NCBI GenBank assembly: GCA_019637815.1
Contig: JAHBUZ010000003.1
Coordinates: 62,001-126,000, forward strand
DNA: 64,000 nt
Source: Chloroflexota bacterium
GTDB lineage: Bacteria > Chloroflexota > Limnocylindria > Limnocylindrales > CSP1-4
Direction of reading: 5' to 3'
The notes below the pieces were generated by a model. It had not been told where the DNA came from. It did no database searches and worked only from the letters and a program-made list of their open reading frames with translations. Below, piece after piece: positions 30,564-62,521 of the stretch. The stretch's first letter is position 1; each line of letters starts with the position of its first letter. Made by a program: the position numbers and the translations under genes.

Positions 30564-31040
30564 ATGAGCGAGCGCACGGCACGCCTGGACGAGCTGCTGC
30601 GCGAGGAGATCTCGGCGATCGTCGCGCGTGAGGTCGCCGATCCGCGCATCGGGTTCGTGACCATCACGAGCGTGGACGTGGCACCGGACCTCGCCCACGC
30701 CACGGTCTGGGTGTCCGTCATCGGCGATGCCCAGACCCGGCGTGCCTCCGTGCGCGCGCTCGGTCGGGCCATGCCCTTCGTGCGGCATCGCCTGGGCGCG
30801 CTGCGGCTCAAGCGCATCCCGGAGCTGCACGTCCGTGAGGATGACTCCGCGGAGCGGGGCACCCGCGTCATGCATCTCCTCGATCAGCTGGAGGAGGGGA
30901 GCGCCGATCCGCTCGCGGGCCCGGCGCCGACACCCACGACACTGCCCATGCCCGCCCCGATGCGCGGCGTGCCGGAGCCCCGCAAGCCGCGTCGGACGTC
31001 ATCGAAGCGGTCGGACGGAGGGCGACGCCATGGCCACTGA
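30564..31040 (+). CDS. rbfA: ribosome-binding factor A
   Basis: RbfA is a 30S maturation factor that binds near the 16S 5' end. The 158-residue protein has the KH-like core RLDELLREEISAIVAREVADPRIGFVTITSVDVAPDLAHATVWVSV and RHRLGALRLKRIPELHVREDDS. A Pro-rich then basic C-terminal tail of about 45 residues is extra. It overlaps the next gene by 11 bases. Confidence 0.95.
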   Translation: MSERTARLDELLREEISAIVAREVADPRIGFVTITSVDVAPDLAHATVWVSVIGDAQTRRASVRALGRAMPFVRHRLGALRLKRIPELHVREDDSAERGTRVMHLLDQLEEGSADPLAGPAPTPTTLPMPAPMRGVPEPRKPRRTSSKRSDGGRRHGH

Positions 31041-32076
31041 CCCCACGGCCAGCCTCGGGTCGATCACCGGGCACGACCTGGCCGCCGTGCCGGACGCGGT
31101 CGTGGCGCTGCTCGGGGCGTCGCGGCGCGTCCTCGCCATCGGCCACGAGAGCCCGGACGCGGACGCGTTCGGCTCGGCGCTGGGTGTCGCGCTCGCCGTG
31201 GAGTGGCTGGGTGGTCGGGCGACCGCCATGAGCAGCGACCCCGTGCCGCCGATGTACGACTTCATGCCCCACATCGAGCGGATCCGGGCGGAGCCCGACC
31301 CCGACCTCGACTATGACCTCATCGTGGTCTCGGACAGCGGGGATCTGGGGCGTGTCGGGCGGGTCGCGCGGGAGCATGCCGAGCTGTTCGGTCGGGTGCC
31401 CATCCTGGTCATCGACCACCACGCCTCGAACGAGGGCTTCGGTGCCGTCGACTGGGTGGACCCGAGCGCCGCGGCCGCGTGCGAGATGGTGGCCCTGCTC
31501 CTGCCCCGCCTGGGTGTGCCGCTGGATGCCCTCGATGGCACGATCGCCGCGGACCTCATGGCAGGCGTCATCGGCGACACGGGCATGTTCCAGCACCCCA
31601 ACGCGACACCGCGCACGATGCGCGTGAGCGCGGATCTGCTGGCGGCCGGCGCATCCATCGCGGACGTGGCACGGCGCATCTACCGCAACAAGCCCAACGC
31701 CCAGCTGCGCCTGTTCGGCCGGGTCCTCGCACGGCTCGAGAGCGACCTCGACGAGCGGCTCGTGTGGGCGAGCCTCGAGCCGGATGACCTCGTCCGGAGC
31801 GGCGCCAGCGCGGAGCAGTCGGAGGGCATCATCGACCTGCTCGCGCAGTCCGCCACGGCGGAGGTGGCCATCCTGTTCCGGGACCTCGGTGACCGGACGC
31901 GCATCAGCACCCGCACGCGGGATGGTGGCGTGGACGCCATCGTGCTGACGTCCACCTTCGGCGGCGGCGGCCATCCCCGGGCTGCCGGAGCCACGGTGAT
32001 GCTGCCGCTCGCGGAGGCCCGGGTCGCGGTGCTCGCGGAGGCGACGCGGCTCATCGATGCCCTGGGGCCACGCTGA
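31030..32076 (+). CDS. nrnA: DHH-family bifunctional oligoribonuclease/pAp phosphatase
   Basis: NrnA degrades 2-5 nt RNAs left by exonucleases and can dephosphorylate pAp. From the ATG at 31030 it has 348 residues; the longer frame is rbfA out of frame. DHH motifs are HESPDADAFGSALG (39-52), VSDSGD, VIDHHAS and GVIGDTGMFQHPN. The C-terminal DHHA1 domain has TSTFGGGGHPRAAGATV. It lies between rbfA and truB as usual, and matters here because pnp further along the operon carries its own oligoribonuclease-like domain. Confidence 0.94.
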   Translation: MATDPTASLGSITGHDLAAVPDAVVALLGASRRVLAIGHESPDADAFGSALGVALAVEWLGGRATAMSSDPVPPMYDFMPHIERIRAEPDPDLDYDLIVVSDSGDLGRVGRVAREHAELFGRVPILVIDHHASNEGFGAVDWVDPSAAAACEMVALLLPRLGVPLDALDGTIAADLMAGVIGDTGMFQHPNATPRTMRVSADLLAAGASIADVARRIYRNKPNAQLRLFGRVLARLESDLDERLVWASLEPDDLVRSGASAEQSEGIIDLLAQSATAEVAILFRDLGDRTRISTRTRDGGVDAIVLTSTFGGGGHPRAAGATVMLPLAEARVAVLAEATRLIDALGPR

Positions 32077-33154: not shown

Positions 33155-33754
33155 GTGTCCGCGGACGTCCTGGGTGACATCGACGAGCTGCGACCGGGTC
33201 TCCGGTTCGTGGCCACCGTGGGCGTGTTCGATGGGGTCCACCTGGGCCATGCGGAGGTGCTCGCGCGTCTCGTGGCGCTCGCCGGGGAGCTGGCGGCCGC
33301 GGCGGTCGTCATCACGTTCGACCCGCATCCCAATGCGCTCATCACGGGCCGCGCGCCGGAGCTGCTGTGCGATCGTCAGGAGCAGCTGACGCGGCTCCGG
33401 GACGCAGGGGTGGACGTGGTCGTGGTGCAGCGGTTCGACGAGGCGTTCCGGTCGCAGACGGCCGAGGAGTTCCTCGACCGGCTGGCCCGGGACCGGGAGC
33501 TGGTCGGCCTCGTGATGTCCCACGAATCGGCCTTCGGCCGCGACCGGCAGGGGACCGTGGCGACCGTCCAGCGGCTGGCGAGCCGGGACGGCTGGCGGCT
33601 GGTGGAGGTGGAGACCCTGGAGGTCGATGGTGCGCCCGTGTCGAGCTCGCGCATCCGTGCTGCGCTCACGGCAGGCGACCTCGTCACCGCCGAGCGGCTG
33701 CTGGGCCATCCCTGGACGCCACCCGGGGACGAGGGCACGCAAGGGACGACATGA
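33155..33754 (+). CDS. ribF: FAD synthetase domain of RibF, lacking the riboflavin kinase half
   Basis: Bacterial RibF is normally a bifunctional protein of about 310 residues (C-terminal flavokinase and N-terminal FMN adenylyltransferase). This one starts at the GTG 33155 and has 199 residues: VGVFDGVHLGH (22-32), VITFDPHPN, and SSSRIRAALTAGDLVTAERLLGHPW. It then ends within 15 residues, at the exact domain boundary. The flavokinase domain is absent from this frame and not seen in other frames nearby. The stop overlaps the start of a P-loop kinase gene (ATGA). Confidence 0.9.
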   Translation: MSADVLGDIDELRPGLRFVATVGVFDGVHLGHAEVLARLVALAGELAAAAVVITFDPHPNALITGRAPELLCDRQEQLTRLRDAGVDVVVVQRFDEAFRSQTAEEFLDRLARDRELVGLVMSHESAFGRDRQGTVATVQRLASRDGWRLVEVETLEVDGAPVSSSRIRAALTAGDLVTAERLLGHPWTPPGDEGTQGTT

Positions 33755-34317
33755 CCGGTCACGCCGAGGCGATCCTCATCACGGGTGTCTACGGGGTGGG
33801 CAAATCGACCGTGACCGGTCAGCTGGCGGACCTGCTGGAGGCGGCCGGGATCCGCTACGCCGCGCTCGATCTCGACTGGCTGTCGTGGGCGTGGGTCGAG
33901 GACGCTGGGGACGACCCCGTCGACGCGTTGATGCTGGAGCACCTGGCGCTGCTGGTGGATAACCTCCGCCGACGAGGCAACGACCGGTTCGTGCTGGCGG
34001 GCGCGGTGATGACCACGGCCGAGCTGGCGGCGATCCGGGACACGCTGGACATGCCCGTACGCGTGGTGCGCCTGACCGCGCCCCTCGAGACCGTCCACCG
34101 GCGTCTCGCCAACGAGCCGACCACGGGCAGGGACGAGGATCGGCGCCGCACGGACGCCTGGCTGGCGAGCGACGACGACGCGATGCCCGCGGCCGACCTG
34201 GTGATCGCGAACATGGGTTCGATCCCGGCCACTGCCGAGGCGGTCCTGGCCTGGACCGGCTGGCTGGAGGGCGACCCCACCGTCGACCCCGAGGACGATG
34301 CCGCTGTCGGCACCTGA
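33751..34317 (+). CDS. small P-loop (AAA_33/shikimate-kinase-like) kinase, substrate unknown
   Basis: The ATG at 33751 overlaps the ribF stop; 188 residues. Walker A is GVYGVGKST (12-20), followed by QLADLLEAAGIRYAALDLDWLSW, a substrate-site-like Asp-x-Asp-Trp. A lid-like Arg-rich region lies near 125-140 (ETVHRRLANEPTTGRDEDRRR). It resembles adenylylsulfate/chloramphenicol-phosphotransferase-type small kinases. Its position in place of the missing flavokinase half of RibF raises the possibility of a replacement kinase, but nothing in the sequence proves the substrate. Confidence 0.7.
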   Translation: MTGHAEAILITGVYGVGKSTVTGQLADLLEAAGIRYAALDLDWLSWAWVEDAGDDPVDALMLEHLALLVDNLRRRGNDRFVLAGAVMTTAELAAIRDTLDMPVRVVRLTAPLETVHRRLANEPTTGRDEDRRRTDAWLASDDDAMPAADLVIANMGSIPATAEAVLAWTGWLEGDPTVDPEDDAAVGT

Positions 34318-34358: not shown

Positions 34359-34398
34359 CCCGGCGAACTATCGAAGGAATGGATGGTTGGAGGACTCT

Positions 34399-34668
34399 GT
34401 GCCGCTCACGCGGGAAACGAAGGAAGGCATCATCACGGAGCATGCCACCCACGAGGGTGACACCGGCTCCCCGGAGGTCCAGATCGCTCTGCTGACGGAG
34501 CGCATCACGGGTCTCACGGAGCATCTGCGCGCCTTCCCGAAGGATCATCACTCGCGGCGCGGCCTGCTCAAGCTCGTCGGCCAGCGCCGCCGCCTCCTCG
34601 CGTACCTGATGCGCAAGGACAACGCCCGGTATCGCGCCGTCATCAGCCGGCTCGGCCTGCGCCGCTAG
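34399..34668 (+). CDS. rpsO: 30S ribosomal protein S15
   Basis: S15 is a primary 16S rRNA binder. TTG at 34387 is in frame, but GGAGG at 34389-34393 places the start at the GTG 34399 ([33 protein letters not shown]), 89 residues, the universal length. The [21 protein letters not shown] signature is present. pnp follows, the conserved rpsO-pnp pair. Confidence 0.96.
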
Positions 34669-34828: not shown

Positions 34829-37411
34829 ATGCCGGTCACTACCCTGTCCGCCGAGTTCGGCGGTCGCACCCTCACCATCGAGACGGGCCGCATGGCCCGA
34901 CTGGCCGGGGGTTCTGTCACCGTGCGCTACGGCGACACCCTCGTGCTGGGCACGGCGAACCGCTCGGACCCCCGTCCCGGGCTGGACTTCTTCCCGCTCA
35001 CGGTGGACTTCGAGGAGCGGATGTATGCCGCGGGCAAGATCCCGGGCGGCTTCATCAAGCGCGAGGCGCGACCGTCCGAGGCAGCCATCCTGGCCGCCCG
35101 GCTGACCGACCGGCCCATCCGGCCGCTGTTCCCGGAGGGCTACAAGGATGACGTCCAGGTCGTCCTGACGGTCCTCTCCACCGACCGTGAGAACGACCCC
35201 GATGTGCTCGGTACGGTCGCCGCGTCGGCAGCGCTGACCATCAGCGAGATCCCGTTCCTGGGCCCCGTGGGCGCGGTGCGCGTCGGGCGTATCGGCGGGC
35301 AGTTCGTCATCAACCCGACCTTCGAGGATCTCAAGGAGTCCGAGCTCGACCTGGTCGTCTCGGGTACCCGTGACGCGATCATGATGGTCGAGGCCGGCGC
35401 GAACCTCCTGACCGAGGACGTGATGGCGGAGGCCATCCTGTTCGGCCACCGCTCGCTCCAGCCGCTCATCGACCTCCAGGAGCAGCTTCGGGCACAGGTC
35501 GGCAAGACCAAGCGGACGCCCTTCATCGAGCCCGGCACGGACTCCACGCTCCAGTTCGCCGATGCCGTCGCCGCCGGCCGCTCGTTCGTGGTGTTCGACC
35601 TCGAGACCACGAGCGTGGACCCCAAGCTCGGCCGCATCGTGGAGATCGGTGCCGTCAAGGTGGAGCAGGGCGCCATCAAGGACCGCTGGTCGACGTTCGT
35701 GGATCCGCAGCGGCCCATCGTCGGCAACCAGCTCCATGGCCTCACGGACAAGGACGTCAAGGGCGCCCCGACCGCCGACAAGGCCGTCGCGGAGCTGCTG
35801 ACGTTCGCGGGTGATGCGCTGCTCGTCGGTCACAACGTGGGCTTCGACCTGTCGTTCGTGAAAGCCGTCGCCGCCGCCAAGGTGGAGCAGGGTCGCTACC
35901 TGGACACGCTCAGCCTCAGCCGGGACGCCTACCCGGACCTCGGCGTGTACAAGCTCGCCGACCTGTGCCGCTTCTTCTCGCTCTCGGAGCCGACCCATCG
36001 GGCGCTGCCGGATGCAGAGGCCACTGCGGCGCTGCTCGTGCGCCTCATCGAGGACCTGCCCGTCCGCGTGAAGAGCCTCAAGGAGGCCATCGCGGCCTCG
36101 ATCCGCTCGCGCGCCAACGGTGGCGATCGGGATGCGGCGGACGCCGCGCTCGAGGCCGCCAAGATCGACTCGGGCCTGTCCAAGGGCCTGACCGGGCTCG
36201 TCCACAAGAAGGTCGTGCGGGAGCTGGTGCTCTCCGAGGGCATCCGCATGGACGGCCGCGACACGGAGACCATCCGGCCCATCTCGGTGGAGGTCGGGCT
36301 CGTGCCGCGCGCGCATGGCTCGGGTCTGTTCACGCGGGGTGACACGCAGGCGCTCACGGTCGCGACCCTGGGCCCCAGCTCGGACGTCCAGCGGATCGAC
36401 ACCATCGGCCCTGCGGAGTCGAAGCGCTACCTCCACCACTACAACATGCCGCCCTACAGCACCGGTGAGAACAAGCCCATGCGAGGGCCCGGCCGCCGCG
36501 AGATCGGCCACGGTGCGCTTGCCGAGCGGGCGCTCCTGCCAGTGCTGCCGAGCCACGAGGAGTTCCCGTACGTCATCCGCCTCGTGAGCGAGTGCGTGAC
36601 GTCCAATGGCTCGACCTCGATGGCCTCCACCTGCGGCTCCACGCTCGCGCTCATGGATGCCGGTGTGCCCATCAAGGCCCCGGTCGCCGGCGCGGCGATG
36701 GGTCTGGTCACGGAGGGCGACCGGTTCGCGGTGCTCACGGACATCCTCGGCAAGGAGGATGCCTTCGGTGACATGGACTTCAAGGTCACCGGCACCCGGG
36801 ATGGCATCACGGCGCTCCAGATGGACATCAAGGTCCAGGGCATCAACGAGGCGATCATCCGCACCGGCCTGGAGAAGGCCCGCGTGGCCCGCCTGTCCAT
36901 CCTGGACAAGATGGTCGACGTGATGCCGCAGGCTCGCCAGGAGATGAGCGAGTTCGCGCCGCGCATCACCACCATCCACATCAACCCCGAGAAGATCCGC
37001 GACATCATCGGCAAGGGTGGCGCGACCATCCGCAAGATCCAGGAAGAGACCGGCACGGAGATCAACGTCGAGGACGACGGCACCGTCGAGGTGGCCGCGG
37101 CCGACGGCGAGGCCTCCAAGAAGGCGATCGCCTGGATCGAGTCGATCACCCGCGAGGTGGAGATCGGTGCGCTCTACCTGGGCAAGGTGACGCGCATCAT
37201 GGGCTTCGGTGCCTTCGTGGAGATCCTGCCCGGCAAGGAGGGCCTCGTGCGCATCGGCGAGCTCGCCGACTACCACGTGCCGACCGTGGAGGACGTGGTC
37301 CAGATCGGTGATGAGATCATGGTCGTGGTGACCGAGATCGACCGCCAGGGCCGCGTCAACCTGTCCCGCAAGGCCGCCATGCAGCGACACCAGGCGAAGG
37401 CTCCCGCCTGA
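34829..37411 (+). CDS. pnp: PNPase with an inserted DEDDh 3'-5' exonuclease domain
   Basis: PNPase degrades RNA 3'-5' with phosphate. This protein has 860 residues against about 700-740 usually. Order: RNase PH domain 1 (about 1-210, [20 protein letters not shown]); start of the helical linker (211-245); a DnaQ-like exonuclease (about 250-411); rest of the linker (412-468); RNase PH domain 2 (469-705); KH (713-775, IIGKGG); S1 (778-847). The exonuclease has all five DEDDh residues: D257 and E259 (VVFDLETTS), D340 (GHNVGFD), H390 and D395 (HRALPD). PNPase site residues are also intact: SNGSTSMAS at 592-600, D644, D650, K652. The insert is in frame without repeats or base-composition change, so it is a real domain fusion. 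It should combine phosphorolytic and hydrolytic decay. Confidence 0.96.
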
Positions 37412-37611: not shown

Positions 37612-39882
37612 GTGCTGCAGGGTCGATCCATACCTCGGGGCCTGACGATCATCCTGGGAGTGGTCCTGGCGTGGTCGAGCGCGATCGTGGCGTCGACCGG
37701 CGCGACATCCGCCCAGGGGACATCCGTCCGGCTGGCCGCCGCTCGCGCCGGACACACTGCGACGCTCCTCCAGGACGGACGGGTGCTCCTCGCGGGCGGT
37801 CAGCAGAACGCGAACGGGCTGGATCCGCTCCGGTCCGCGGAGGTCTGGGATCCCGTGACGGAGACATCCTCGGCGGTCGGCTCGCTGCCGGAGGCGCGCA
37901 CCGGCCACACCGCCACGCTCCTGGCCGATGGCCGCGTGCTCCTCGTGGGCGGCATCGGGTCGCGGGGCACGGCGCTCCGGTCCGTGGCGCTGTTCGATCC
38001 GGGCGCCGGCACGTTCACGCGCACCGGCGCGCTCCGCGATGCTCGCCAGTCCCACACCGCGACGCTCCTGCCGGATGGGAAGGTGCTGATCGCTGGCGGC
38101 CTGGATGACGATGTGGACATCCTGCGGTCGGTGGAGGTGTGGGATCCCGATACCGGTACGTCCACCCGTGCCGGACGGCTCCGGACGGTGCGCATGCACC
38201 ACACCGCGACCCTGTTGCCGGACGGGCGGGTGCTCATCGTGGGCGGGGATGATGCCAGCGGCCCCCTGTCCAGCGCGGAGATCCTGGACCCCGCCGCCGC
38301 GCGATCCACGAGCACCGGGTCGCTCGCCCGTGCTCGAAGCCGGCACACGGCGTCCCTGCTGCCGGACGGCCGCGTGCTCATCGCCGGGGGCGCGGCCGTG
38401 GAGCGGACCGTGTCACGGGCGGAGATCTGGGACCCGACGTCCGGGGCCTTCAGCGCGGCTGGTGCGTTCGACACGGCGCGCGAGGTGTTCCGGTCGACGG
38501 TCCTGCCCGACGGCCGGGTGCTCGTGACGGGCGGCTGGCGCGCGCCCAGGGCGCTCGCGTCCATGGAGGCGTGGGATGCCGCGAGCGGCGGGTTCACGGC
38601 CGCGGGCGACCTGCGTCAGGCACGCTGGGATCACACTGCGACCCTGCTCGGGGACGGTCGCGTGTTCGTCGCAGGCGGCTATGACTCCCGGGAGACCGCG
38701 CGACGGAGTGCCGAGATCGTGGAGCCCGGGGGAGCGGAGCCGGTCGCCTCGCCAGGCCCGACGCTGGCCCCCGATGGGGCGATCCGCCTGGCTCGCACCG
38801 GCCACACGGCCACGTTGCTCGGGGAGGGGACCGTCCTCGTGGCAGGTGGCGCGGGACGAGCCGGCGTGCCTCGCGCGTCGGTCGAGACCTGGGACCCGGT
38901 CGCGGGTGTCGCGACGGACGCGGGGCCGCTCCGCGAGGCTCGCACCGGCCACACGGCCACGCTCCTGCCGGACGGGCGGGTGCTCGTGACAGGCGGTCAT
39001 GGTCCGGCCGGCGAGCCGCTCGGCAGCACCGAGCTGCGTGACCCGACGACGGGCCGGTTCCAGACGGCGCAGCCGCTGACGGCACCGCGGTCGGCGCACG
39101 CCGCCACCCTCCTGCCCGACGGCCGGGTGCTGATCAGCGGCGGCATCGGCCTGGAGGGCACGCTGGACACGATGGAGCTGTGGGACCCCGTGACCGGCAC
39201 ATCCACGCCGACGGGCTCGATGCTGGAGGCTCGCACCGGCCACACGGCCACGCTCCTGGCGGACGGTCGCGTGGTCATGGTGGGCGGCCAGACGGATGCC
39301 GACTCGTCGCCCCTGGCCTCGTCGGTCCCGGCCTCGTCGCCCTCGACGGCGTCGCTCGCGACCGCTCCCTCGCTCGCGAGCGCCGAGGTCTGGGATCCGG
39401 CCACGGGGACGACGACGCTGACCGGGTCGCTGCCAGCCCCGCGTTCCGGCCATACGGCCACGCTCCTGCTGGACGGCCGCGTGCTCATCGTGGGCGGTTA
39501 CGTGCCGGGCGAGGGCGCCAGCGGCTCGGCCGTGGTGTGGGAACCCGTGACCGGTGTGTTCGCGCCGGCCGGGACCCTGTCGGTCGCTCGGTTCGGGCAC
39601 ACGGCCACGCTCCTGCTGGACGGCCGCGTGCTGATCGTCGGCGGCACGACGGGCTCCGGCGCGTCCGACACTGTCGTCGAGGTAGAGGTCTGGGGTCCCG
39701 TGACCGGCACGTTCGGGCCCGCGGGCAGCCTCGCTCGTCCGCGCCAGGACCACACCGCCACGCTCCTCGCGGACGGACGAGTGTTGATCATCGCGGGTCG
39801 TGATGGGAACGGGACCGCGCTGTCATCCGTGGAGCTCTGGGACCCTGTGACCGGGGCCGTCACGGACGCTGCGGGCGATTGA
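37612..39882 (+). CDS. secreted kelch-repeat protein (two predicted beta-propellers)
   Basis: The GTG at 37612 after GGAGGGG starts a 756-residue protein with a signal peptide (GLTIILGVVLAWSSAIVASTGATSAQ, about 10-35). Fourteen kelch repeats follow, each with a core close to GHTATLLPDGRVLIVGG and ending EVWDPVTG. Repeats 1-7 and 8-14 are separated by a Pro-rich linker (about 374-390), which suggests two seven-bladed propellers. A Ser/Ala-rich loop interrupts repeat 11. No catalytic residues of galactose oxidase are evident. A surface-binding or adhesion role is likely; the ligand is unknown. Confidence 0.85.
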   Translation: MLQGRSIPRGLTIILGVVLAWSSAIVASTGATSAQGTSVRLAAARAGHTATLLQDGRVLLAGGQQNANGLDPLRSAEVWDPVTETSSAVGSLPEARTGHTATLLADGRVLLVGGIGSRGTALRSVALFDPGAGTFTRTGALRDARQSHTATLLPDGKVLIAGGLDDDVDILRSVEVWDPDTGTSTRAGRLRTVRMHHTATLLPDGRVLIVGGDDASGPLSSAEILDPAAARSTSTGSLARARSRHTASLLPDGRVLIAGGAAVERTVSRAEIWDPTSGAFSAAGAFDTAREVFRSTVLPDGRVLVTGGWRAPRALASMEAWDAASGGFTAAGDLRQARWDHTATLLGDGRVFVAGGYDSRETARRSAEIVEPGGAEPVASPGPTLAPDGAIRLARTGHTATLLGEGTVLVAGGAGRAGVPRASVETWDPVAGVATDAGPLREARTGHTATLLPDGRVLVTGGHGPAGEPLGSTELRDPTTGRFQTAQPLTAPRSAHAATLLPDGRVLISGGIGLEGTLDTMELWDPVTGTSTPTGSMLEARTGHTATLLADGRVVMVGGQTDADSSPLASSVPASSPSTASLATAPSLASAEVWDPATGTTTLTGSLPAPRSGHTATLLLDGRVLIVGGYVPGEGASGSAVVWEPVTGVFAPAGTLSVARFGHTATLLLDGRVLIVGGTTGSGASDTVVEVEVWGPVTGTFGPAGSLARPRQDHTATLLADGRVLIIAGRDGNGTALSSVELWDPVTGAVTDAAGD

Positions 39883-42135: not shown

Positions 42136-43038
42136 GTGACGCCCGAGGAGCGCAGCGGCGCCCTCGCGCGCATCGCCGACGAGGTGCGTACCTGTCAGCG
42201 GTGTCGCCTCGCGACGACGCGTACCCGCGCGGTGCCCGGTGAAGGCAGCCCGGACACCGAGGTGGTGTTCGTGGGGGAGGGGCCCGGTCAGAACGAGGAC
42301 CAGCAGGGCCGCCCCTTCGTGGGCGCGGCGGGTCGGTTCCTCGACGAGCTCATCACGACGGTCGGCTGGCGACGACGCGACGTGTTCATCACGAACGTGG
42401 TGAAGTGCCGCCCGCCCGGCAACCGTGACCCGGAACCGGACGAGATGGCCGCCTGCGCGCCGTACCTGCGCCGCCAGCTGGAGGTGCTGGACCCCGCGCT
42501 CGTGGTGACGCTCGGCCGGTTCTCGCTGGGCACGTTCATGCCCGGCGCCAAGATCAGCCAGGTCCACGGCACGATCCGGCCGGTGGATCCGGGCACGGGT
42601 GCACGCGCGGCGCGAGCGGTCGCGATGTATCACCCGGCCGCCGCGCTGCGTGCCACGAACCTCAAGGAGACGATGCGGGACGACATGTCCCGGATCCCCC
42701 AGGCGCTCATCGATGCCCGCGCGGCACGCCCGGCGCCCGAGGCCGACGAGCCCGCTGCGGGACCGACGGCCCCGCCGGACGCGCTCGAGCCGATCGCCGA
42801 GCCCGCCACGCCCGAGCTCCAGCCGATCGCCGAGCTCGTGCCGACGCCCGAGCCCGCGCCGGTGCCCGAGCCCGCGACGGCTCCCATGACCGACCCGATC
42901 CCCGTGGACCCCATCGAGCCCGAGATGGCGGCACCAGACCCGCCCGAGGACCTCGAGGATCTCGACCAGCTGACGACCCTGGAGGTCGTCATCGCCCCCG
43001 ACCGATCGCCGGAGACCGACCAGATGCGACTCTTCTGA
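42136..43038 (+). CDS. udg: family 4 uracil-DNA glycosylase with C-terminal clamp-binding motif
   Basis: The GTG at 42136 is the only plausible start (300 residues). The Fe-S glycosylase domain (1-190) has cysteines C20, C23, C91 and C107, motif GEGPGQNEDQQGRPFVGAAG (47-66) and MYHPAAALR (164-172). These define thermophile-type family 4 UDG, which removes uracil from DNA. Residues about 200-290 are a disordered Pro/Glu/Ala tether, and the last five residues, QMRLF (296-300), match the bacterial beta-clamp-binding consensus QxxLF. The stop overlaps the rnj start. Confidence 0.92.
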   Translation: MTPEERSGALARIADEVRTCQRCRLATTRTRAVPGEGSPDTEVVFVGEGPGQNEDQQGRPFVGAAGRFLDELITTVGWRRRDVFITNVVKCRPPGNRDPEPDEMAACAPYLRRQLEVLDPALVVTLGRFSLGTFMPGAKISQVHGTIRPVDPGTGARAARAVAMYHPAAALRATNLKETMRDDMSRIPQALIDARAARPAPEADEPAAGPTAPPDALEPIAEPATPELQPIAELVPTPEPAPVPEPATAPMTDPIPVDPIEPEMAAPDPPEDLEDLDQLTTLEVVIAPDRSPETDQMRLF

Positions 43039-44741
43039 TGCCAGCCAAGGCCCCCGTCACCCAGGCACCGCCCACCTCCACCGAACCCCTGCGGATCATC
43101 CCGCTGGGCGGGGTCGGGGAGATCGGCAAGAACATGACCGTGTTCGAGTACGACGATGAGATCGTCGTCATCGACTGCGGTCTCGCCTTCCCGGACGAGG
43201 AGATGTTCGGCATCGACCTCGTCATCCCGGACGTCTCCTATCTCAAGGAGCGCCGTCACAAGGTCAAGGCGTTCCTCATCACGCACGCCCACGAGGACCA
43301 CGTCGGGGCGCTGCCGTACGTCCTGCCGGAGTTCCCGGGCGTGCCCGTCTATGCCTCGACGCTGGCGCGTGGCCTGCTCGCCAACAAGATCAAGGAGCAC
43401 AAGCTCCGCAACAACCCGCTGCTGCCGTTCGATCCGGGTCAGACCATCGAGCTGGGCGCGTTCTCGGCGCGCGCGTTCCGGATCGGCCACTCCATCCCGG
43501 ATGCGATGGGCATCGCGCTCCACACGCCGGTGGGCACGGTCGTGCACACCGGAGACTTCAAGTTCGACCAGACCCCGGTCGATGGCAAGGGCACGGACTT
43601 CCACGAGCTGGCCCGCCTGGGCGCCGAGGGCGTGCTGTGCCTGATGTCCGATTCCACGCGCGCCGAGACGCCCGGCTACACGCCCTCCGAGCGGACCGTG
43701 GGCGAGGCCTTCCGGGGCATCATGGAAGGGCTGGACGGGCGGGTCATCGTGGCCACCTTCGCGTCGAACATCGCGCGTATCCAGCAGGTGTTCGATGCCG
43801 CCGGCGAGTTCGGTCGCAAGGTGACGGTCATCGGTCGCTCGATGGAGCAGAACACGCGCATCGCGACCGACCTCGGCTATCTCCATCCGGGCCCCGGGCA
43901 GCTGGTCCCCAAGGACCGGTTGCGGGACATCCCCGATGCCGAGATGTGCATCGCGACCACGGGTGCCCAGGGCGAGCCCATGGCGGGCCTTGCCCGGATG
44001 GCCAACCGGGATCACCGGTTCGTGGAGATCGTGCCCGGCGACACGGTCATCGTGAGCGCGAGCCCCATCCCCGGCAACGAGGAGTACGTGGCGCGCACCA
44101 TCGACAACCTGTTCAAGGTGGGTGCCAACGTCTACTACCATGCCATCCGTCATGCACACGTCTCGGGCCACGCCAGCCAGGAGGAGCTGAAGCTGATGCT
44201 CAACCTGACCCGGCCGAAGACCTTCATCCCCATCCACGGGGAGTTCCGGATGCAGGTCGCACACGGCCGCATCGCAGCGGAGGTGGGTGTGCCCCCGGAG
44301 GGCATCTTCATCCTCGAGAATGGCCAGCCCATGGAGTTCTTCGCGGACGGCACCGTGCGTCGGGCCAACCCGGTGGAGGCCGGCATGGTGTTCGTGGACG
44401 GTCTCACCGTGGGCGAGGTCGGTGACGTCGTGCTGCGGGACCGACGCGCGCTCGCCAACGACGGGATGTTCCTGGTCGTGGTCACCGTGGACAAGCAGAA
44501 CGGGCGCCTGGTGGGCAAGCCGGAGGTGGTCACGCACGGCTTCGTGGCGACACCGGACGCGGCGCTCATCGCGGGCGCCACGGAGCGCATCGCCCGCGTG
44601 CTCGAGGGTCCGGGTGACCGGATCGACCGCATCAACGAGATCGCACTGCTCAAGGAGAAGCTCAAGGACGGCCTCTCCCGCTATCTGTACGAGCAGACCC
44701 GGCGGCGTCCCATGGTGATGCCCGTGGTCGTGGAGGTCTGA
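43038..44741 (+). CDS. rnj: ribonuclease J
   Basis: RNase J is a metallo-beta-lactamase/beta-CASP nuclease with 5'-3' exo- and endonuclease activity on RNA. The 567-residue protein has IIPLGGVGEIGKNMTVFEYD, the metal motif THAHEDHVGALPYVL (82-96), HTGDFKFDQTP, MSDSTRAETPGYTPSE and IPIHGEFRMQVAHGRIAAEVG, then the C-terminal domain. It lies in a tightly overlapping udg-rnj-ftsK group. Confidence 0.96.
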   Translation: MPAKAPVTQAPPTSTEPLRIIPLGGVGEIGKNMTVFEYDDEIVVIDCGLAFPDEEMFGIDLVIPDVSYLKERRHKVKAFLITHAHEDHVGALPYVLPEFPGVPVYASTLARGLLANKIKEHKLRNNPLLPFDPGQTIELGAFSARAFRIGHSIPDAMGIALHTPVGTVVHTGDFKFDQTPVDGKGTDFHELARLGAEGVLCLMSDSTRAETPGYTPSERTVGEAFRGIMEGLDGRVIVATFASNIARIQQVFDAAGEFGRKVTVIGRSMEQNTRIATDLGYLHPGPGQLVPKDRLRDIPDAEMCIATTGAQGEPMAGLARMANRDHRFVEIVPGDTVIVSASPIPGNEEYVARTIDNLFKVGANVYYHAIRHAHVSGHASQEELKLMLNLTRPKTFIPIHGEFRMQVAHGRIAAEVGVPPEGIFILENGQPMEFFADGTVRRANPVEAGMVFVDGLTVGEVGDVVLRDRRALANDGMFLVVVTVDKQNGRLVGKPEVVTHGFVATPDAALIAGATERIARVLEGPGDRIDRINEIALLKEKLKDGLSRYLYEQTRRRPMVMPVVVEV

Positions 44742-61879: not shown

Positions 61880-62521
61880 CTACAGGTCGCGGGCGAGGGC
61901 CACCACCGGCTCGGGCGCCCCGCCGGATCGAAGCCAGTCCAGGGGCGAAACGAGCGAATCGCCGAGCTCGAGGTCCGAGCTCGCTGCGGTCAGGAAGGAC
62001 CATGCGTCGACCGGATGCAGATCCTCCGGCAGCGCGGTCACGACAGCCGACAGACCGCGGACCTGCCGGTCCCCGTCGAACTGTGCGCGCGGGAACCGCC
62101 ACTCCTCCCCTTCCCTGATCGCGAACAGCGTCCGCTCCGTGGCGCGTTGCCGGATGCGTGCGGGGGTGACACCGAGGCGCCCGGACACCTCAAGCACGTC
62201 GGCGGAGTCAGCAAGGAGCGCCGCGTATCGAGCGATGGTGGCGGCCACCGGATCGGGTTCGCTGCTCCGACGCGGCGAGAGGTCGAGGCCACCCGCGTCG
62301 AGGAGCCTGCGCTCGTGTTCGGCCATCTGGGAGGCCGGATCGGCGATCCCTGACGGCCGAGCATCCCGGACCGCAGCGATGGCGACCGCCGAGAAGCGGC
62401 GCTCGTCGATCCCCGCCGAACGCAGCGCAGCGCGAAGCGCCGCGAGCTCGTCGCGCGCCGGGTGGCGCTCCTGCGACGCCGCCGCGGATGTGGCCTTGGT
62501 TCTTGTCTGGGCTATCGACAC
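61880..62521 (-). CDS. Xre/MbcA/ParS-like antitoxin of the RES toxin
   Basis: Minus-strand GTG at 62521; 213 residues. An alpha-helical protein with a winged/HTH-like segment (LADSADVLEVSGRLGVTPARIRQRATERTLFAIREGEEWRFPRAQF), then LPEDLHPVDAWSFLTAASSDLELGDSLVSPLDWLRSGGAPEPVVALARDL. The latter is the DUF2384-like toxin-binding part, found typically upstream of RES toxins. Expression is leaderless from TATCAT six bases before the GTG. Confidence 0.82.
   Translation of the reverse strand: MSIAQTRTKATSAAASQERHPARDELAALRAALRSAGIDERRFSAVAIAAVRDARPSGIADPASQMAEHERRLLDAGGLDLSPRRSSEPDPVAATIARYAALLADSADVLEVSGRLGVTPARIRQRATERTLFAIREGEEWRFPRAQFDGDRQVRGLSAVVTALPEDLHPVDAWSFLTAASSDLELGDSLVSPLDWLRSGGAPEPVVALARDL

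Follow-up and report, generated by a model that had tools for sequence, protein, structure and literature searches.

A polynucleotide phosphorylase with an inserted DEDDh exonuclease domain, conserved across families of Chloroflexota

Introduction

Polynucleotide phosphorylase (PNPase) is described as a highly conserved RNA-decay enzyme that is known for phosphorolysis. What, then, would be the function of a PNPase that carries a hydrolytic type of exonuclease within its own chain? This question is raised by the pnp gene in a stretch of 64,000 nucleotides (the window; positions 62,001 to 126,000 of contig JAHBUZ010000003.1, assembly GCA_019637815.1) from a Chloroflexota bacterium, whose product has a DEDDh exonuclease domain between its two RNase PH halves, as had been pointed out in an earlier reading of the window (the sequence-only reading). 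Here, we compared this protein and its genome with those of relatives for architecture, conservation, distribution, a single origin, and gene content, from which we infer its catalysis, trimeric state, substrate, and role. Our best explanation, to which we give a probability of roughly 0.62, is that the fused protein is a bifunctional 3'-to-5' exonuclease with two chemistries, which arose by one graft and has been kept under purifying selection.

Results

A complete PNPase with an additional DEDDh domain

The pnp gene is a single unbroken open reading frame (ORF) with an ATG start (Table 1). Pfam recognized two RNase_PH, two RNase_PH_C, one KH_1 (residues 714-771), and one S1 (residues 777-848) domain in its product, together with the RNase_T domain (PF00929) that the sequence-only reading had expected, which matched at residues 254-403 (E 2.9e-26; 93.4 bits against a gathering score of 24). 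The NCBIfam equivalog model of PNPase, TIGR03591, scored 955 bits for the whole protein against a cut-off of 525. The phosphorolytic residues ([10 protein letters not shown]644, D650, and K652) are also present, and the last three, which we take to be the phosphorolytic active site of PNPase, were found in 48 of 48 aligned PNPases. With all five DEDDh residues in place as well, the claim of a complete PNPase that contains a DEDDh domain (35561-36073, codons 245-415) was borne out. The window protein thus shares with bacterial PNPase (TIGR03591) the two RNase PH halves, the KH and S1 domains, the phosphorolytic residues, and an rpsO gene beside pnp, but differs in the additional DEDDh domain of ~160 residues after the first half and in that PF03726, the all-alpha linker profile, is undetected in it. 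It is the one full-length PNPase match in its own genome, a draft of 61 contigs that is 87.28% complete. Among the best 25 of 61 NCBIfam matches to the full protein, cut-offs were passed only for plain PNPase models, so that annotation would leave the extra enzyme unnamed. No helicase family was found in the fused protein by Pfam, the match to TIGR01407 (DnaQ-DinG) spanning just positions 2-164 of 889, and a PADLOC scan matched three profiles, all on the DEDDh part.

A predicted monomer structure agrees with this architecture. The AlphaFold model was based on 32 aligned sequences (the window protein and 31 of 32 loci, the partial L076 being excluded and shorter matches having been excluded earlier), and had a mean predicted local distance difference test score (pLDDT) of 71.2 and a predicted template modelling score of 0.67. 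All 10-residue blocks of residues 251-470 had pLDDT values between 73 and 94, and the low-confidence stretches were residues 47-84, 516-558, 709-711, and 777-860. The model matched the PNPase structures 5xex (Z 46.6; 495 of 511 residues, the catalytic part), 8zaw (Z 46.4), and 3cdi (Z 46.3), and its residues 236-453 matched the exonuclease region of PolC in 9qpc (Z 21.9, 2.0 A, 177 residues). Folded alone and with no alignment, the domain region had a pLDDT of 41.1. The best 50 matches of a viral structure search, mostly of DnaQ type and polymerase type, did not include this architecture.

The closest relatives of the insert lie among DnaQ-type exonucleases. Among the best 25 of its 28 NCBIfam domain matches, the nearest profiles were PRK07883 (a DEDD exonuclease), DinG, and PolC; Orn and RNase T were absent from these and from the 11 matches in the Protein Data Bank (PDB), so that the "DnaQ/oligoribonuclease-like" label of the sequence-only reading is not supported as regards Orn. 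Orn and RNase T belong to the DEDDh superfamily, but they are stand-alone small proteins, whereas the insert is part of a PNPase. The exonuclease of DinG (SaDinG, BsuDinG; TIGR01407, PRK08074) is a DEDDh domain of the same DnaQ subgroup, but its partner is an XPD-like helicase instead of PNPase. The best solved sequence relative is the PolC proofreading exonuclease (2p1j, 9qpc; E 3.6e-23), which also lies within a longer chain (9qpc match 445-605 of 1474), although its host is a DNA polymerase and not an RNA phosphorylase. Cas2-DEDDh (8fy9, E 2e-8) likewise joins a DEDDh domain to another protein, but there the partner is unrelated and the domain is C-terminal (128-285 of 289), whereas it is internal here. 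A literature search, which was thin on subscription papers and preprints, found no description of a PNPase with a DEDDh domain, in keeping with what the sequence-only reading had stated. Each of the two parts comes from a well-known family; the novelty lies in how they are combined, in the fixation of this architecture across families, and in the usual status of the insert as the sole RNase_T match of the genome.

The fusion is fixed in three families and has a single origin

The genome of the window and 100 relatives (101 genomes) were searched for PNPase. These genomes fall into five families (f1-f5), which probably belong to Ca. Limnocylindria (Chloroflexota), judging from "same class" labels and from Ca. 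Aquidulcis frankliniae (L078), which the NCBI taxonomy places in that class. A PNPase match was obtained in 57 of 61 f1, 18 of 19 f2, 8 of 10 f4, and 10 of 10 f3 genomes as well as in the single f5 genome. The first RNase PH half, the exonuclease, and the second half lay in one matched stretch in 74 of the 83 f1, f2, and f4 genomes with a PNPase match (53 f1, 15 f2, and 6 f4); in the remaining nine, the match was interrupted by a contig end or divided among frames, and in three of these it stopped before the junction. None of the 83 had an unfused PNPase. A class-wide search of 177 genomes found the insert with its flanks, whole or partial, in 92 f1, 16 f2, and 16 f4 genomes, while the 26 f3 and f5 genomes had one insert match each, in another frame (890-1066 amino acids in 23 of the 24 matches listed). 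When 400 genomes, all of the phylum Chloroflexota, were searched for the junction, it was matched, among the matches listed, only in 50 genomes of f1, f2, and f4; no fusion outside the class was among them, and other families matched the exonuclease alone, from query residue 43 or beyond. A named genome collection was also searched with two peptide patterns, and at least 80 loci were kept. The fusion, or a partial or frame-split copy of it, was present at 37 of these loci (L053-L089), whose titles all name Chloroflexi, Chloroflexota, or a genus of that phylum; L120 ends at the junction, and the other 42 loci are exonuclease frames without PNPase parts. The loci of this collection and those of the family survey come in part from the same genomes. 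Overall, the fusion is fixed in f1, f2, and f4 and is missing from f3 and f5. The sequence-only reading had considered that the fusion might be absent from related genomes or be a mis-join of two genes; the former was not the case, and the latter is contradicted by the genome comparison. An independent convergent fusion in other phyla is possible.

Some copies of the fused gene are interrupted. In L079 and G015, L086, G048, L052 (G054), and L055, two or more frames are needed to cover it, for which sequencing errors are the likely cause; the break in G015 lies just past the exonuclease. Two genomes of one genus (G002 and G043) have one in-frame TAG within the PNPase match, with the insert region itself open. 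In three related loci (L145, L097, and L130, the last from a Thermomicrobiaceae strain), a DEDDh domain begins ~90-340 residues into frames of 671-914 amino acids.

The origin of the insert was examined in two trees, each of which included 20 hand-picked fused rows. In the PNPase-core tree (LG+G4, insert removed), with 15 PNPases of other Chloroflexota families as the outgroup, the 20 fused proteins formed one clade (100/100), and a single change sufficed for the trait. The inserts also formed one clade (100/97; the bootstrap was not fully settled), and f4 branched off first from f1 and f2 in both trees. The simple reading of these trees is that the domain was captured once, in the common ancestor of f1, f2, and f4, and then descended vertically. 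The insert of L077, a metagenome-assembled genome (MAG) titled Thermoflexus hugenholtzii, groups with f2, a family with 1-Mb genomes, beside L035; this title is probably wrong.

The exonuclease active site is conserved under purifying selection

Conservation of the active site was examined in 48 PNPases, 40 fused and 8 unfused (seven f3 and one f5), leaving out L001 (the locus of the window), L051 (which duplicates L022), and L052 (its frame being split). D257, E259, D340, H390, and D395 were all kept in the 40 fused proteins. When the comparison was widened to 69 distinct rows, with L001 and L090-L132 excluded, D257, E259, and D340 were present in 69/69; without the frameshifted row L086, whose H390 and D395 columns were not counted, H390 was present in 68/68 and D395 in 67/68. 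Within residues 245-419, just 25 of 175 positions were invariant in the 40 fused proteins, and these included all five catalytic ones; for five positions named beforehand, the probability of this by chance is ~4e-5 (a guide only, the sequences being related). The five closest pairs, of which three have members in common, gave a ratio of nonsynonymous to synonymous substitution rates (dN/dS) of 0.08-0.12 for the exonuclease domain, and the highest value among the 25 pairs listed was 0.59. In the same five pairs, the dN/dS of the PNPase core was 0.04-0.07; the exonuclease thus evolves faster. As estimated from these sequences, selection on the exonuclease domain is purifying.

A probable insertion point at the front of the all-alpha linker

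The sequence-only reading had placed the DEDDh domain inside the helical linker. Its position between the RNase PH halves was confirmed, and the insertion point could be refined to the edge of the linker. In the unfused sisters (seven f3 and one f5), ~65-70 residues (67 in L046) lie between the G-K-P-K motif behind the first half and the second half, taken to begin at the first confidently aligned column; in the window protein, the same spacer is present as ~21 residues before and 44 residues after the exonuclease (manual count). PF03726 matched in full in both unfused proteins scanned (L042 and L046), had no match in the window protein or L078, and gave a sub-threshold match in another fused protein (L081), confined to the last 27 positions of the profile. 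A profile comparison of the linkers was confident over the last 32 columns only, which are mostly the start of the second half. In the AlphaFold model, helices 434-448 and 452-470 follow the exonuclease, and the total helix length is about right. We read these data as an insertion into the leading edge of the linker domain, the remainder of which has diverged.

Other nucleases in the fused and unfused families

All 12 f3 and f5 genomes (11 f3 and 1 f5) had a TIGR01407 match that includes the helicase, although in one (G098) the halves were on separate contigs, in another (G088) the first 41 positions were missing, and in a third (G080) the frame had a stop codon in another search. In contrast, no DinG-type gene with helicase was found in 59 f1, f2, and f4 genomes (46, 5, and 8, respectively), two of which (G016 and G035) had helicase-only matches. 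In 57 of these 59, TIGR01407 matched the exonuclease of the PNPase instead; the others, G089 and G093, had no TIGR01407 match, and G089 had no PNPase match either. In a sample of 131 Chloroflexota genomes from outside the class, which overlaps with, but is not identical to, the 400 genomes searched for the junction, 84 had a DinG-type match at 1e-60, and in some of these the match was confined to the helicase part. Within the class, the joint pattern of DinG loss and fusion is suggestive only.

Gene content was further compared in 25 genomes of the class (17 fused and 8 unfused). The insert was the sole RNase_T match at 1e-4 in 13 of the 17 fused genomes, with one more match in each of the other four, and just one RNase_T match was likewise found in 6 of the 8 unfused genomes. 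None of the 25 had RNase_T in a PolC-like frame. RNB (RNase R/II) was found in none of the 25, compared with 11 of 14 control genomes. PF01612 (RNase D type) was not matched in any of the 17 fused genomes and had weak matches in 5 of the 8 unfused ones, in frames of about 900-1100 amino acids. A second DHH gene, of about the size of NrnA (frames 339-549 amino acids long), was present in 17/17 fused and 6/8 unfused genomes, and RNase J in 25/25. In most of the 25 genomes, RNase_T occurs only in PNPase or DinG, leaving no recognizable separate DnaQ; proofreading may have another source, perhaps the PHP domain of DnaE. Two f1 genomes (L149 and L150) have an extra diverged DEDDh gene in frames of 422 and 605 amino acids, distinct from the PNPase insert.

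Discussion

How could the two nucleases of this protein work together? In the explanation that we favor, the PNPase ring would use phosphate to degrade RNA in the usual way; in addition, every subunit would carry a two-metal DEDDh hydrolase, active and grafted where the all-alpha linker begins. This graft would have occurred once, in the common ancestor of f1, f2, and f4, and would then have been retained under purifying selection. Given the conserved active site, the selection on it, and its position, the domain is likely to work as a hydrolytic 3'-to-5' exonuclease, and if the protein is a trimer like other PNPases, it would hold three hydrolytic sites, as the sequence-only reading had supposed. 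The DEDDh part would trim the ends of RNA and of RNA-DNA hybrids independently of phosphate; the main rival substrate is DNA ends. According to passages of PMC2723993, the helical domain of E. coli PNPase is found on the side of the ring away from KH/S1 and forms the lining of a side pore that is thought to pass phosphate or nucleotides and is unlikely to pass RNA. If this geometry holds here, the three DEDDh domains would stand at the face far from RNA entry, so that, instead of serving as a first filter, they would act on separate substrates or on ends that reach this side of the ring, which argues against both sites simply working in line. Only tentatively would we go further and suggest that the ring applies phosphorolysis and hydrolysis to the same 3' ends in answer to the absence of RNase R/II, and that it has absorbed a last, formerly DinG-borne DEDDh domain, linking RNA decay to R-loop and DNA-end processing.

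Several points weigh against the two-chemistry explanation or its extension. According to passages of PMC12525004, B. subtilis DinG degrades single-stranded DNA (ssDNA) and hybrid RNA in the 3' to 5' direction but cleaves linear single-stranded RNA only with Mn, so that kinship with DinG does not predict RNA use. In one MAG (L071), His replaces D395 in the HxAxxD motif, which reflects either an error in sequencing or a true loss of activity. The TIGR01407 cut-off was reached by none of the 12 DinG-type matches (best 496.7 against 547.7 bits), and 47 of the 131 Chloroflexota genomes outside the class had no DinG-type match at 1e-60; DinG is thus often missing elsewhere, where no fusion was seen among the matches listed, so that its loss is common and may be unrelated to the fusion. 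Moreover, the fusion and the loss of DinG are each about one event on the tree, and 0/59 versus 12/12 is therefore a single observation. The DinG of the class itself was considered as a possible ancestor of the insert, but the free tree places the insert elsewhere; constraining the inserts with the DinG exonucleases of the class costs 4.5 log units (p 0.309 in the approximately unbiased (AU) test, which excluded seven long or odd rows of 81), and a union with more Chloroflexota DinG-like rows, the DinG label of which was partly guessed from frame length, gives p 0.425, so that the AU test neither rejects nor supports this descent. Finally, the unfused sister families also have no RNB, which means that the absence of RNB alone did not force the fusion; loss of RNase R/II as its trigger has accordingly been lowered among our candidates.

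Among the other explanations, the strongest, although we consider it unlikely, is that the DEDDh domain is chiefly a DNA exonuclease that performs DinG-type genome maintenance on 3' DNA ends and R-loops, with PNPase as its scaffold or loader. The nearest known relatives of the insert act on DNA; S. aureus DinG has a reported 3'-5' exonuclease activity (PMC12345164), and B. subtilis DinG degrades ssDNA, as noted above; B. subtilis PNPase itself has a reported role as a 3'-to-5' DNase in DNA repair (Cardenas 2009, cited in PMC12525004); and DinG-type genes with helicase were found, within the class, only in the unfused families among the genomes compared. However, the host protein keeps its full RNA apparatus, including KH and S1, and its gene sits with rpsO in a translation/RNA cluster; the exonuclease-DinG helicase is gone from the fused families, and the frequent absence of DinG-type genes elsewhere in the phylum, with no fusion among the matches listed, also tells against this reading. 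Less probable still is a nanoRNase that hydrolyses the 2-5 nucleotide oligos left by PNPase to mononucleotides, one of the roles that the sequence-only reading had proposed. PNPase leaves short limit products, Orn, which does this job, is a DEDDh enzyme, and the insert is mostly the only RNase_T match of its genome; but an NrnA-sized DHH gene accompanies the fusion in every fused genome compared and stands in the pnp cluster of the window as well, and the nearest profiles include no Orn among those considered. Given this candidate in the same cluster and the non-Orn kinship, finishing off short oligos is unlikely to be the main job.

We give little credit to the view that the domain has no catalytic function and is retained for structure or RNA binding, altering the shape of the linker and of the side pore used by phosphate and nucleoside diphosphates. 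Its place at the all-alpha domain, which passages of PMC2723993 connect in E. coli with access of phosphate and nucleoside diphosphates, the divergence of the adjacent PF03726 region beyond detection in the window protein, and its faster evolution than that of the PNPase core would fit such a role; against it, all five catalytic residues are among the few invariant positions of the domain. An assembly or gene-calling artefact that joined two genes has a negligible probability. The fused genomes are drafts of at least seven contigs, the named ones are nearly all MAGs by title, and a few copies are split by frameshifts, but the same join recurs in one stretch in most of the genomes surveyed and at the loci of the named collection (partly the same genomes, with a few partial or frame-split copies). 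This recurrence across genomes rules out an assembly mis-join for practical purposes.

If the two-chemistry explanation is right, both chemistries of 3' RNA decay are joined in one polypeptide that is fixed across several bacterial families. In the eukaryotic exosome, a PH-type ring and an added hydrolytic exonuclease divide labour, and a ring that applied both chemistries to the same 3' ends would be a one-gene bacterial counterpart of this division. The fused protein also raises the questions of how ends that resist PNPase are dealt with in cells without RNase R/II, and whether an RNA decay machine can take over functions of DinG-type exonucleases.

Gene neighbourhood

The coordinates of the fused gene, its parts, and the neighbouring genes of interest are collected in Table 1. 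The pnp gene belongs to a familiar cluster in the order nusA, infB, NrnA-like DHH/DHHA1 gene, truB, ribF, rpsO, and pnp, and the RNase J gene lies further along. The NrnA-like gene, identified by its DHH and DHHA1 domains only, ends 2.7 kb upstream of pnp and is one of two DHH matches in the genome.

Table 1 Features of the pnp region, in positions of the window
Feature	Position	Strand	Evidence
pnp, fused PNPase-DEDDh protein, 860 amino acids	34829..37411	+	ORF, Pfam, NCBIfam
First RNase PH half, residues 1-228, ending in a helix pair and G-K-x-K motif	34829..35512	+	
Inserted DEDDh exonuclease, residues about 251-410	35579..36058	+	PF00929; fold match to 9qpc
ExoI motif, codons D257 to E259	35597..35605	+	
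ExoII, codon D340	35846..35848	+	
ExoIII-epsilon HxAxxD, H390 to D395	35996..36013	+	
Remainder of the all-alpha domain, which has diverged from PF03726; residues 411-470, with helices at 434-448 and 452-470	36059..36238	+	
Second RNase PH half, phosphorolytic active site (D644, D650, K652)	36239..36943	+	
KH domain	36968..37141	+	Pfam
S1 domain	37157..37372	+	Pfam
rpsO (S15), directly upstream of pnp	34387..34668	+	PF00312, E 1.4e-36
NrnA-like DHH/DHHA1 phosphoesterase, candidate short-oligo nuclease	30727..32076	+	PF01368, PF02272
RNase J	ORF 43038..44741	+	TIGR00649 at window 43092-44729 (G000:C23:105092-106729)

Two further ORFs lie near pnp. Between ribF and rpsO, a P-loop kinase-like ORF (33367-34317) has AAA_18 at residues 136-258; its 5' part overlaps the ribF frame, and its true start is thus probably further downstream. 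After pnp, positions 37612-39882 encode a protein of 756 amino acids with many Kelch repeats.

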